Part shown: positions 16,936-62,416 of the stretch, piece after piece | Layout of the letters: the number at the start of each line of letters is the position of its first letter | Numbering within the stretch: position 1 is the first letter of the stretch | Assembly: GCF_003595175.1 (NCBI RefSeq) | Contig: NZ_CP032419.1 | Span: 3,100,001-3,164,000 of the forward strand | Source: Pseudomonas cavernae | GTDB lineage: Bacteria; Pseudomonadota; Gammaproteobacteria; Pseudomonadales; Pseudomonadaceae | Length of the DNA: 64,000 nt | Direction: 5' to 3' | The notes under the pieces: generated by a model | Database searches by the model: none | What the model was told of the DNA's origin: nothing | What the model saw: only the letters and a program-made list of their open reading frames with translations | Position numbers and translations under genes: made by a program

Positions 16936-17081
16936 TTAGAGTCTGTTTACGATCTCGCGTGCTAGAGCCAGACAAGGCGAAATCGGGCGAAGAAGCGCAG
17001 TTTACGCGTTGTAAATGAGCATTCTGAGCCCGATTTCAACGCCGTATGGCCGACGCGCAGCAGATCGTAAACAGGCTCTTA
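16936..17081 (-). repeat. 146-bp stop-codon-associated structured repeat, copy 1
   Basis: Copy 1 of a repeat found three times in the window. The imperfect terminal inverted repeats are about 20 bp (16936-16955 and 17062-17081; motif CTGTTTACGATCT). An internal 10-bp stem (GAAATCGGGC / GCCCGATTTC) encloses a small TTTAC...GTAAA hairpin. The oriented 5' end coincides with the TAA stop of the phosphorylase gene (17079-17081). If the core is taken as 16939-17078 (140 bp), it is flanked by direct TTA repeats. It separates the helicase and phosphorylase genes, which converge here. Confidence 0.9.
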
Positions 17082-17816
17082 CGCGCCCAGCACCCGCGCC
17101 AGCACCGCCTTGACCTGGTTCATGCCATCGGCCAGTGCCCGCTCGATCTCGGCCATGGTGATCACTCCAGACGACTTGCCCGCTGCCGGGTTCACCACCA
17201 GCGCCAGACAGGCATAGGGCAGCTCCAGCTCGCGTGCCAGCACGGCTTCCGGCATCCCGGTCATGCCGACAATGTCGCAGCCGTCGCGCTCCAGTCGAGC
17301 GATCTCTGCTACGGACTCCAGCCGCGGGCCTTGGGTGCAGGCGTACACGCCGTGGCCACTATAAGCACAGCTTTCTGCCATCAGCGCAGCGGTCAGCTGC
17401 CGGCGCAGGCGCTCGTCGTAGGGGTAGCTGAAGTCGACATGGGTGACATGATCCAGCTCACCGGCGAAGAAGGTGTGTTCGCGCCCCCAGCTGTAATCGA
17501 TGATCTGATGCGGCACGCAGAAGTGACCGGTGCCCATGGCCGGGTGGATGCCTCCGACCGCATTGACCGCGAGGATTGCCTCGGCGCCGGCCTGCTTGAG
17601 CGCCCACAGATTGGCGCGGTAATTCACCTGATGCGGTGGAATCCGGTGCGGATGACCGTGGCGGGCGAGGAACAGCACCTCGCGCCCGGCGTAGTTACCA
17701 CGCAACACAGGGGCCGAGGGCGCGCCATAGGGTGTGTCGATATTCAGCGCGGCGCTCAGGGTCAAGCCCTCCAGCTGGGTCAGGCCAGTACCGCCGATGA
17801 TGGCGTAAACGGTCAT
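17079..17816 (-). CDS. S-methyl-5'-thioinosine phosphorylase (MTAP family)
   Basis: 245-residue purine nucleoside phosphorylase that cleaves methylthioinosine (or methylthioadenosine) with phosphate in polyamine/quorum-sensing by-product salvage. The family start YAIIGGTGL, the phosphate/ribose region [25 protein letters not shown], and [21 protein letters not shown] are visible. Pseudomonas enzymes of this clade (PA3004) prefer methylthioinosine, so that name is used by orthology. The ATG at 17816 has a GAGGAAAG ribosome site; an upstream in-frame ATG does not. It lies 10 bp downstream of nagZ. Its stop codon is the end of repeat copy 1. Confidence 0.92.
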
Positions 17817-17826
17817 GTCGCTTTCC

Positions 17827-18837
17827 TCAATCAATCAACTGGGCGGTGCGCAGATCGGCCACGGCCGCCAGCCAGCGCGGCTGCTGGCGGTATTCGGTGG
17901 TCGCGAAACCCTGGCCGCGCATGCGCGCCAGACGTGCCGGCACCTGCACCCTGAGGCGCTGCAAGGCACTCAGGGCCAGCTCGGCGGCGCCGCGGTCATT
18001 GCACACCAGGCCCATGTCACAGCCGGCAGCGAGTGCCGCCTCGATGCGGCTGGCGGCATCGCCGACCACATGGGCGCCGGCCATGGACAGGTCATCGCTA
18101 AAGATCACTCCGTCGAAGCCCAACTCGCCGCGCAGGATGTCCTGCAGCCAGCGGCGGGAGAAACCGGCCGGCTGTGCGTCCACCTGCGGGTAAATGACAT
18201 GCGCCGGCATCACCGCCGCCAGCTTTTTGCTGAGCTGGGCAAAAGGCCGCAGGTCATTGGCGCGGATCTGCTCCAGAGTGCGTTCGTCAATCGGGATGGC
18301 CACATGGGAATCCGCCTCAGCCCAGCCGTGACCGGGGAAATGCTTGCCGGTCGCCGCCATGCCCGCGGCATTCATGCCGCGGGTAAAGGCCCCGGCCAGC
18401 AGCGTCGCGCGTTGTGGGTCGCCCTCGAAGGCACGGCTGCCGACCACGGCGCTGCGCTGGTAGTCGAGGTCGAGCACCGGGGCGAAGCTGAGATCCAGAC
18501 CGACCGCCAGCACCTCGGTGGCCATCAGCCAACCGCATTGTTCAGCCAACCACTCGGCATTGGCGTTGTCGGCTATGGCACGCATCGCCGGCAGGCGTAC
18601 GAAGCCCTGGCGCAGGCGCTGCACCCGCCCGCCCTCCTGATCCACCGCCAGCAGCAGATCCGGGCGCACCGCGCGAATGGCCGCGCTCAACTCGCGCACC
18701 TGACGGGGATGCTCGATATTGCGCGCAAACAGGATCAAACCACCCACTTGCGGTTGCCGAAGAATCAGCCGGTCTTCAGCGGTCAGCCAGGTGCCGCCGA
18801 TATCCAGCATCAAAGAGCCTTGCAGGCTTGAAGTCAT
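17827..18837 (-). CDS. nagZ: Beta-N-acetylhexosaminidase NagZ
   Basis: 336-residue cytoplasmic glycoside hydrolase family 3 enzyme that removes GlcNAc from recycled anhydromuropeptides, producing signals for AmpR-controlled beta-lactamase. Visible motifs are [16 protein letters not shown], the acid/base loop [14 protein letters not shown] and the nucleophile region [12 protein letters not shown]. Length is that of the single-domain NagZ subtype. It lies 9 bp after the L,D-transpeptidase gene and 10 bp before the phosphorylase gene, so the three minus-strand genes form a likely operon that joins wall turnover and nucleoside salvage only by location. Confidence 0.96.
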
Positions 18838-18846
18838 AACGAATCC

Positions 18847-61140: not shown

Positions 61141-61144
61141 CGCC

Positions 61145-62197
61145 ATGAGACAAGCCATACGCGAAGCCCTCAGTTGGCATGCCGGCCCGCCCGCCTGGGG
61201 CTCGGGAGCGGTTGCGGCCCTCGGTTGCGCCTTGCCGCTGCTGCTCGGCCTGTTCTCCAGCCATTCCGGCTTCCTGTGGGCCGCCACCGGCGCCTTCCAG
61301 GCCGCCCAGGCTTCCGCCCTGCACCGCTTCGGCATGCTGCGCATGTTGCTGCTCACCGGTCTCGGTGCCTGCAGCGCCGGCCTGGGTTTCTGGAGCGGCA
61401 GCCATCCGTTGTTGAGCCTGGGGTTGTTCGCCGTCTTCGGCCTGCTGCTGGCCTGGCTGCAGCGCTTCGGCAAGGAGGCCGGCAAGCTCGGGGTCGGCCT
61501 GGCTGTGTGCCTGTCCCTCGGTCAGGGTCAGTACGGCATCGGCAACCTGCATAACCCTTATGCGGTGGCCATGCTGTTCATTCTCGGTGGCCTGTGGGTG
61601 ATGCTGCTGGCCTTCGGCTTGCGCGGCGTGCATGGCCTGCGCATGTGGCCGCAGATGCCGCGCCTGTTGAGTCTGCTCAAGGTGCTGCGCCGCCACGCCC
61701 GACGCTTGCCCGAGCAGCAGTGGCGTCTGCATGCCCTCGGCTGCACCCTGGCTTTCGCCCTCGCCGGCCTGGTCGTACAACTGGCCGAACTGCCACGCGG
61801 CTACTGGCTGACCCTGACGGTGATCTGCACCCTGCAACTGGAATTCCGCGGCAGCCTGGTGCGCGCCCTGCAGTCGGGCGCAGCCAGCCTGTGTGCGGCC
61901 GCCCTGCTGATCCTCTTCGCCCACAGCCTGCAGAGCCCACCCTTGATGGTGGCGACCATGCTGCCGCTGATCTTTCTCAGCCGCACCTTCCAGGCCAACC
62001 ATTACGGCCTCTACGTGATGCAGAACACCCTGTGTTTCGTGCTGCTCTCGGAAAGCCTGTCGCAGGACTGGCACCTGGCGCAGGTGCGCTTGGTGAACAC
62101 TTTGCTGGGGGTCACGCTGGCAATACTGGTCGCCGTGCTGATGCATGGGCTGCAGCAGTATCTGAGCAGGCATCTGAAGCCGGTGTCGACGGATTGA
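61145..62197 (+). CDS. FUSC-family membrane protein (aromatic acid exporter-like)
   Basis: 350-residue protein with about ten hydrophobic helices arranged as two repeats of the FUSC-like domain (N-terminal LPLLLGLFSSHSGFLWAATGAFQAAQA; C-terminal GYWLTLTVICTLQLEFRGSLVRALQSGAASLCAAALL). FUSC proteins such as YccS and AaeB are linked to small-molecule efflux; the substrate here is unknown. It lacks the large cytoplasmic domain between the two halves seen in AaeB/YccS, having only the short helix QMPRLLSLLKVLRRHARRLPEQQ. It probably forms an operon with dgt. Confidence 0.83.
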   Translation: MRQAIREALSWHAGPPAWGSGAVAALGCALPLLLGLFSSHSGFLWAATGAFQAAQASALHRFGMLRMLLLTGLGACSAGLGFWSGSHPLLSLGLFAVFGLLLAWLQRFGKEAGKLGVGLAVCLSLGQGQYGIGNLHNPYAVAMLFILGGLWVMLLAFGLRGVHGLRMWPQMPRLLSLLKVLRRHARRLPEQQWRLHALGCTLAFALAGLVVQLAELPRGYWLTLTVICTLQLEFRGSLVRALQSGAASLCAAALLILFAHSLQSPPLMVATMLPLIFLSRTFQANHYGLYVMQNTLCFVLLSESLSQDWHLAQVRLVNTLLGVTLAILVAVLMHGLQQYLSRHLKPVSTD

Positions 62198-62270
62198 ACG
62201 CGAGGGGAAGAGGGGAATATTGCAGAGAGGGAACGATGGGCGCGCCGTGCGCGCGCCCATCGGTGTCACG

Positions 62271-62416
62271 TCAGAACCTGTTTCGGATCTCGCGAGCTAG
62301 AGTCAAACAAGGCAAAAACGGCTGAGGAAGCGGAGTTTACGAGTTGTAAATGAGCATTCCGAAGCCGTTTTTAACGCCGGTTGGCCGACGCGCAGCAGAT
62401 CCGAGACAGGTTCTTA
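62271..62416 (-). repeat. 146-bp stop-codon-associated structured repeat, copy 3
   Basis: Third copy, minus orientation. Its end TTA (62414-62416) is the TAA stop of yggL; the far side is TCA (62271-62273), so the 3-bp direct repeat has one change. Outer arms carry CGGATC instead of ACGATC on both sides, so pairing is kept. The inner stem is AAAAACGGCT / AGCCGTTTTT. It separates the FUSC and yggL genes, which converge. Confidence 0.9.

Follow-up and report, generated by a model that had tools for sequence, protein, structure and literature searches.

Insertion sequences (IS) of the IS1031 group, in the IS5 family, are stated to follow one target rule, insertion at TNA (N, any base) with a 3-bp repeat, and for ISLrh, of the IS1031 subgroup, the same target and repeat length are described, with GAACCTGTCTAGTATCT as the inverted repeat (PMC12016507, in the part available). 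Here we analyse a short repeated element with similar ends, which occurs three times (copies A, B and C) in a stretch of 64,000 nucleotides of Pseudomonas cavernae (NZ_CP032419.1, positions 3,100,001 to 3,164,000; hereafter, the window), each time next to the stop codon of a gene. This element is a non-autonomous, miniature inverted-repeat transposable element (MITE) with features of the IS1031 group. Probably, it was mobilised in trans by an IS5-family transposase of that group and inserted at C-TNA-G, with harmless copies gathering on stop codons.

The element resembles the IS1031 group (ISLrh and the plasmid IS described below) in its 17-bp terminal inverted repeats, near GARCCTGTYYMSGATCT, in its TNA target and in its 3-bp duplication, and transposase remnants with such ends occur in the same genus. 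Unlike that group, it is mostly 140-256 bp long, has no transposase, is palindromic nearly throughout and reaches a far higher copy number. As for bacterial MITEs, it is similar to RUP, Correia/NEMIS and ERIC in being short, non-coding and hairpin-forming, with terminal inverted repeats, target duplication and many copies. It differs from them in using TNA and not TA (RUP inserts at TA, according to the accessible part of PMC2229807), in its exact placement on stop codons and in its optional arm inserts of about 56 bp.

Two further systems are close in other ways. The Pseudomonas fluorescens repeats R0, R1, R2, R6, R178 and others are also hairpin-forming and intergenic, with a tail-repeat-tail bias, and no TNA duplication is named for them in the available text of PMC2718517. 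In ISLxc2 and ISLxx4, of the IS481 family, a stop codon lies within the duplicated host insertion site (excerpt of PMC2516522); unlike here, the duplicated sequence is NCTAGN and the stop is that of the IS's own transposase, not of a host gene. No published report of stop-codon placement was found in a literature search that reached few subscription papers. Compared with the P. fluorescens repeats by their description, the element is probably a new family of MITEs of the IS1031 type, and its habit, although unusual, can largely be explained.

Copies, target duplication and stop codons

A 20-base core pattern, with up to two mismatches, matches the 4.95-Mb genome at 134 places, 71 on the forward strand and 63 on the reverse, and its reversed control at none. 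In this genome we analysed 108 distinct left ends, 97 of them with a recognisable right end, and 96 copies with at least 300 bases on each side form the scored set for this genome. The exact pattern is present in at least 120 stretches of other genomes, which among the matches listed are mostly Pseudomonas, with Azotobacter, Azomonas, Stutzerimonas, Salinicola, Duganella and Massilia also represented. In 120 of these loci we identified 113 left ends; a right end was recognised for 87 of them, and 76 had flanking sequence long enough to be scored (hereafter, other records).

Considering at most one mismatch, the pattern is present in 9 of 40 sampled genomes of the genus, P. cavernae included, with 115 places in this genome and 6 in each of the next three; one genome outside the sample (G331) has 30. 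The 57 copies of exactly 140 bp have a median best identity to another copy of 137/140. Plasmid and phage collections searched with a 252-bp copy gave no match.

Identical 3-bp flanks were found in 77 of the 96 scored copies, and 76 of these 77 are TNA (TAA 27, TGA 20, TTA 20, TCA 9). The triplets are direct copies, not inverted, and both sides vary in step. Among the 77 copies, the preceding base is C in 42 of the 50 located at stops and in 21 of the 27 others, and 46 of the 76 TNA copies have both C before and G after. A mobile element with a 3-bp duplication, as the first-pass annotation had proposed from the three window copies, is thus borne out by these flanks and by empty sites with a single stop.

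Empty sites were compared at the loci of copies A and B, at the level of species and not of sister strains. For copy B, 12 genomes that carry the family at other places were searched. Eight loci could be aligned on both sides, and all 8 lack the element and show just one TAA or TGA at the corresponding position. The search for copy A covered 398 genomes, from which the best 19 other loci were examined. None contains the element; in 16 a stop falls precisely on the aligned position (TAG in three) and in 3 none does, and a single TAA is present in the closest relative, which is 84% identical. In total, the 27 orthologous loci evaluated are all empty. Short length, many copies, empty sites and no transposase gene are features of a MITE, and the 3-bp TNA duplication and the terminal inverted repeats are those of the IS1031 group.

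Placement was scored on the rebuilt empty site of each copy, with genes called by a codon-usage score trained on 19 long open reading frames (ORFs) of the window. In this genome, 42 of the 96 copies sit on the stop codon of a gene directed toward the left end of the element and 15 on that of a gene directed toward the right end; 5 overlap a stop partially, 32 are intergenic and off any called stop, and 2 are inside genes. The corresponding figures for the 76 copies of other records are 32, 4, 2, 23 and 15. Exact duplication of a stop codon is thus seen in 57 of 96 copies (59%). Stops make up 8.5% of the TNA sites where insertion interrupts no gene, 18.5% of the CTNAG sites and 19-24% when sites are weighted by a target model; against an expectation of 24%, the observed 59% has a p of about 2e-13. 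The link to stops that was first noticed in the window extends to most of the scored copies of this genome.

The identity of the stop codon is informative. Considering only genes with a score of at least 20, which leaves 53 occupied stops instead of 57, TAG is found at none of them, compared with 32 of the 176 other stops of this genome (p 1.7e-4). In other records it is at 0 of 35 occupied stops and 19 of 137 others (p 0.015), and pooled at 0 of 88 and 51 of 313 (p 2e-6). Furthermore, TAA is favoured over TGA, with a ratio of 29:24 at occupied stops, compared with 32:112 at other stops. Since TAG stops are never occupied, the element reads the DNA letters TNA and not the ends of genes. The idea of an element targeted to stop codons is therefore kept as to position and changed as to cause, as what is recognised is TNA within C-TNA-G, a third of the copies (32/96) are intergenic and the duplicated triplet may also be TTA or TCA.

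Target-weighted rates per site are highest at stops (17.9), followed by intergenic sites between tail-to-tail genes (4.1), head-to-head (2.1) and tail-to-head genes (0.95), with 0.28 at sites on locus edges and 0.12 in coding sequence. This order is as expected if harmful insertions are lost. Better retention after genes, given in the first-pass annotation as the alternative to targeting, thus contributes, with rates lowest in genes and, off stops, highest between converging genes.

The proposed mechanism would run as follows. An IS5-family, IS1031-group transposase, not found in this genome, would mobilise the MITE in trans and put it into C-TNA-G, with TNA duplicated. The targets TAA, TGA, TTA and TCA are the stops TAA and TGA on one strand or the other, so that every target is a stop on one strand. 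In a GC-rich genome, well-matched TNA sites outside reading frames would often be stop codons. Inside a GC-rich gene, TNA would be largely out of frame and an insertion would break the gene; at the stop, the duplication would regenerate the codon and leave the gene whole. Because TNA covers stops and their reverse complements, and non-coding TNA in GC-rich DNA is often a stop, harmless insertions would pile up exactly on stops as selection removes the harmful ones.

This suggests a simple rule, that the targets of a TNA-duplicating transposon are the stop codons TAA and TGA, taken over both strands. In GC-rich genomes such a transposon can gather harmlessly at gene ends, rebuilding the stop each time, which offers a testable route to high copy number free of gene damage.

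A partner transposase

No PF13340 protein was found in this genome. Two sets of candidates were discarded as partner, namely the PF01609 matches of this genome (L031-L033) and the PF13340 loci L226-L255, which lack a pair of MITE-like ends. Of the latter 30 loci, 25 were long enough to scan, and their best end pair is flanked by TA in 16, CTAG in 3, TAA in 1 (with other ends) and other sequences in 5. In 1.57 Mb scanned for pairs of terminal repeats with a spacing of 600-2200 bp and TNA at their flanks, three pairs were found, all of them MITE ends.

A pattern for ends outside the MITE matched 19 of 398 genomes of the genus and, among 369 genomes of the class, this one only. From these scans, 23 loci (L288-L310) were examined. 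In one of them, L296 (genome G409), a PF13340 transposase (E 1.5e-21) begins just inside GAACCTGTCTCGGATCTT and is cut short. A protein search with this transposase gave matches in 2 of 298 genomes, a set that need not include G409: in G075 (L311), an 80%-identical remnant lies within TAA|GAGCCTGTTTACGATCTT, and in G105 the match is 71% identical. The G075 remnant (L311:1363-1365) abuts, by eye, the TAA stop of a small ORF (MNELEV...LELGM), as the MITE does.

Relatives of the L296 transposase are found in 1558 plasmid records. We examined 17 plasmid regions and recognised the ends in 16 (L313-L316 and L318-L329), with IS of 843-880 bp and identical TNA duplications in 13. Two plasmid records of Xanthomonas campestris appear to share one insertion, a complete IS5-family element with GAACCTGTTCACGATCT on both sides, and three copies in this genome have the identical 17 bases at one end or both. 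A partner that combines such ends with a PF13340-type transposase is thus represented by remnants in the genus and by complete copies on plasmids of other genera. Because these plasmid IS and genus remnants carry the same or close ends, the ends of the element are those of IS1031-group IS, and a transposase of this group probably mobilised it in trans in the past.

As for the surroundings of the plasmid IS, the TTA duplication of a complete IS5-family element on a Pandoraea plasmid (L314:2308-2310) coincides exactly with the stop codon of an annotated gene. On an Acinetobacter plasmid (L328:2309-2312), an ISAba37-type element has a duplication that shares two bases with the annotated stop of a short gene.

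Residual excess, orientation and hairpin

Several results weigh against an account based on target preference and loss alone. First, the spike at stops is sharper than the target models predict. In this genome 57 copies are at the stop and 5 in the next 30 nt, whereas a model of ±2 bases expects about 45 in those 30 nt and a share of 56% at the stop (p 4e-10); in other records the counts are 36 and 5, with 26 expected in the 30 nt and a share of 58% at the stop (p 3.5e-5). A ±4-base model built from all copies, under a slightly different distance rule, expects 70% at the stop, compared with 57 of 64 observed (p 2e-4).

The excess also depends on the width of the model. Relative to tail-to-tail sites it is 4.7-fold with ±1 base, 3.2 with ±2 and 2.0 with ±4, and then 2.9, 1.3 and 1.9 with ±6, ±8 and ±10, respectively; relative to all intergenic sites it is 14-fold, dropping to 5-8-fold with wider models. 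These models were built from 21 intergenic copies, and models from all copies give lower values but are partly circular. Selection that spares terminators was considered as a cause of the spike and is not supported by the rates past tails that lack a predicted terminator, which have 12 copies per 4427 of weight downstream, compared with 57 per 2373 at stops. These 12 may be an over-count, as a copy between two tails can count twice; another count gives 9 within 100 nt.

Furthermore, identical TNA flanks were found in just 28 of the 76 scored copies of other records, where the right end is harder to place. No intact partner IS was found within the genus. Of the 16 plasmid IS, 2 of which have no annotated neighbour, only 1 coincides exactly with an annotated stop, and 1 other shares two bases with one. 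Lastly, a symmetric target does not predict a bias of the left end toward the gene, which is described below. The preference for C-TNA-G and the loss of harmful insertions account for much of the stop excess, with a residual of 1.3-5-fold over tail-to-tail sites.

Alternatively, gene ends or translation stops might actively attract the insertion machinery, whether by a host factor, by the shape of the DNA at coding ends or by the state of transcription and translation, and the left end would be placed toward the gene. We regard this as doubtful. It would fit the spike at distance 0, which is sharp in this genome (57 copies, compared with 1 within 1-10 nt and 3 within 1-20 nt), the partial IS of G075 next to a small-ORF TAA and the one plasmid IS exactly on an annotated stop. 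It would also fit the orientation of the copies, as 74 of the 93 copies at stops have their left end toward the gene (42:15 in this genome, 32:4 in other records). The bias persists when only tail-to-tail contexts are taken (22:8 and 17:0), where no downstream promoter is at stake. On the contrary, gene-end attraction does not predict that TAG stops are never used or that 32 of 96 copies are intergenic and off any called stop. The tail-to-tail excess falls to 2.0-fold with the ±4-base intergenic model and to 1.2-fold with the all-copy model, which is partly circular, and the spike in other records is weak at 1-10 nt (36:3, p 0.09). A more specific version, in which the transpososome senses the coding end (a step in GC, DNA shape or transcription state) besides TNA and docks the left end on the gene side in a fixed polarity, so that the element would seek gene ends and rebuild the stop that it hits, seems to us improbable. 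Through the orientation bias, the origin of polarity in a nearly symmetric element becomes directly testable.

In this genome, 80 of 108 copies are co-oriented with the replication fork (p 6e-7), stop and intergenic copies alike, with the origin assumed at base 1 and the terminus near 2.4 Mb; the signs of GC skew agree except in the first bin. The co-orientation is not repeated in four other genomes (19:11, 11:8, 8:9 and 5:9, origin again assumed at base 1), and replication polarity was for that reason not relied on as a general trait.

A useful 3' end, whose hairpin terminates or protects the transcript so that copies behind genes are positively selected, is an unlikely explanation. The 140-bp consensus is indeed predicted to form a single full-length hairpin on either strand (-63.8 and -71.9 kcal/mol), and for the tail-repeat-tail bias of the P. 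fluorescens repeats the authors suggest a possible origin in terminator-like stem-loops (PMC2718517, as far as available). However, a hairpin followed by a T run in the sense of the gene is present in just 13 of the 57 stop copies, and a predicted terminator is kept behind the element in 15 of 57, which is similar to control tails (41 of 169).

The pattern of variation in the arms also differs from what RNA selection would leave. It was examined in 25 of the 57 copies of 140 bp, over 48 pairs, where cells are sequences and not events and related copies inflate the counts. Both sides vary in 15 of the 48 pairs, with 93 cells in total; paired cells reach 95.1%, compared with 26-47% when the partner is slid, and one-sided standard changes, through G-U, amount to just 3 cells. 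The covariation score is above all 500 shuffles, and the number of further pair types is not (19, against a mean of 23.9). In a wobble test of the top strand over 37 pairs, A-C is seen in 33 cells and G-U in 9, with 12 of the 33 A-C cells from one pair. Beyond these 37 pairs, constant G-T pairs are predicted on one strand only and hardly vary. Because the two-sided changes come almost without wobble steps, they point to correction of the palindrome arms at the DNA level more than to RNA selection. Template switching has been proposed as such a correction (PMC8794818, in the portion available), and the near absence of wobble steps raises the question of whether it, or RNA selection, keeps repeat hairpins perfect.

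The hairpin also comes in longer forms. Among the 97 two-ended copies, 64 have 139-143 bp (exactly 140 in 57), 13 have 185-225 bp and 16 have 242-256 bp. The longer copies owe their size to inserts of about 56 bp in the arms (left and right), one or two per copy, and by eye the inserts of the two arms look partly complementary. Two copies of 296-297 bp (C1:1165358 and 4844278; L174, L225) carry a different, palindromic insert, CGCGAATGAATTCGCTCCTAC, which we take to resemble a Pseudomonas REP-type repeat nested in the MITE.

Finally, a REP/REPIN-type or other element with no target duplication, whose TNA would be its own, would agree with the short, palindromic, high-copy and mainly Pseudomonas character of the family, but it is hardly credible here, as REP/REPIN elements are not known to duplicate a target and TNA is duplicated in this case, in direct, not inverted, triplets that change in step on both sides, with one triplet at empty orthologous sites.

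The three window copies and their surroundings

The window has a G+C content of 64.1%. Its three copies are 146 bp each, including both flanking triplets, and align free of gaps, as the first-pass annotation had reported, with 123 (A-B), 120 (A-C) and 127 (B-C) of 146 positions identical. In all three, the oriented 5' end is the TAA stop of the adjacent gene, which also agrees with that annotation.

Copy A (16936-17081, minus strand) has its core at 16939-17078 and is flanked by TAA on both sides in the orientation of the element, with the left terminal inverted repeat GAGCCTGTTTACGATCT at 17062-17078 (minus) and the right one, GAGTCTGTTTACGATCT, at 16939-16955 (plus). Its left duplication is the TAA stop (17079-17081) of an S-methyl-5'-thioinosine phosphorylase gene (17079-17834, minus). 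No terminator-like hairpin is evident right behind copy A, and in several relatives (loci L269-L287) one is seen, by eye, at most about 20 nt past the phosphorylase stop.

Copy B (47835-47980, plus) has its core at 47838-47977 between two TAA duplications, the left of which is the stop of a YgdI/YgdR family lipoprotein gene (47580-47837, plus). Its terminal inverted repeats are GAACCTGTTTACGATCT on the left (47838-47854, plus) and GAACTTGTTTACGATCG on the right (47961-47977, minus).

Copy C (62271-62416, minus; core 62274-62413) has the left repeat GAACCTGTCTCGGATCT at 62397-62413 (minus) and the right repeat GAACCTGTTTCGGATCT at 62274-62290 (plus), and its left flank is the TAA stop of the YggL gene (62414-62788, minus). 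Its two flanking triplets differ in the orientation of the element, with TAA on the left (62414-62416) and TGA on the right (62271-62273), which were first noted as TCA/TTA, as read on the plus strand.

Profile matches reach residue 249 of 251 in the phosphorylase, 85 of 85 in the YgdI/YgdR protein and 116 of 124 in YggL. Since they extend to or near the last residue, the three host genes are complete.

With the Rfam covariance models, the sole match in the whole window at the gathering score is a tRNA, with none for the element; two matches below threshold are located around copy B (E 0.48 and 0.99). Antisense ORFs at 17046-17954 (plus), 47682-47870 (minus) and 62381-62779 (plus) start with MADAQQI within the left end of the element and extend back into the host gene, and are likely sources of false gene calls. 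Elsewhere in the window, direct repeats at 1027-4192, spaced by about 1920 bp and 71-79% identical, are probably a pair of duplicated genes, and weaker repeats are found at 32297-33382.

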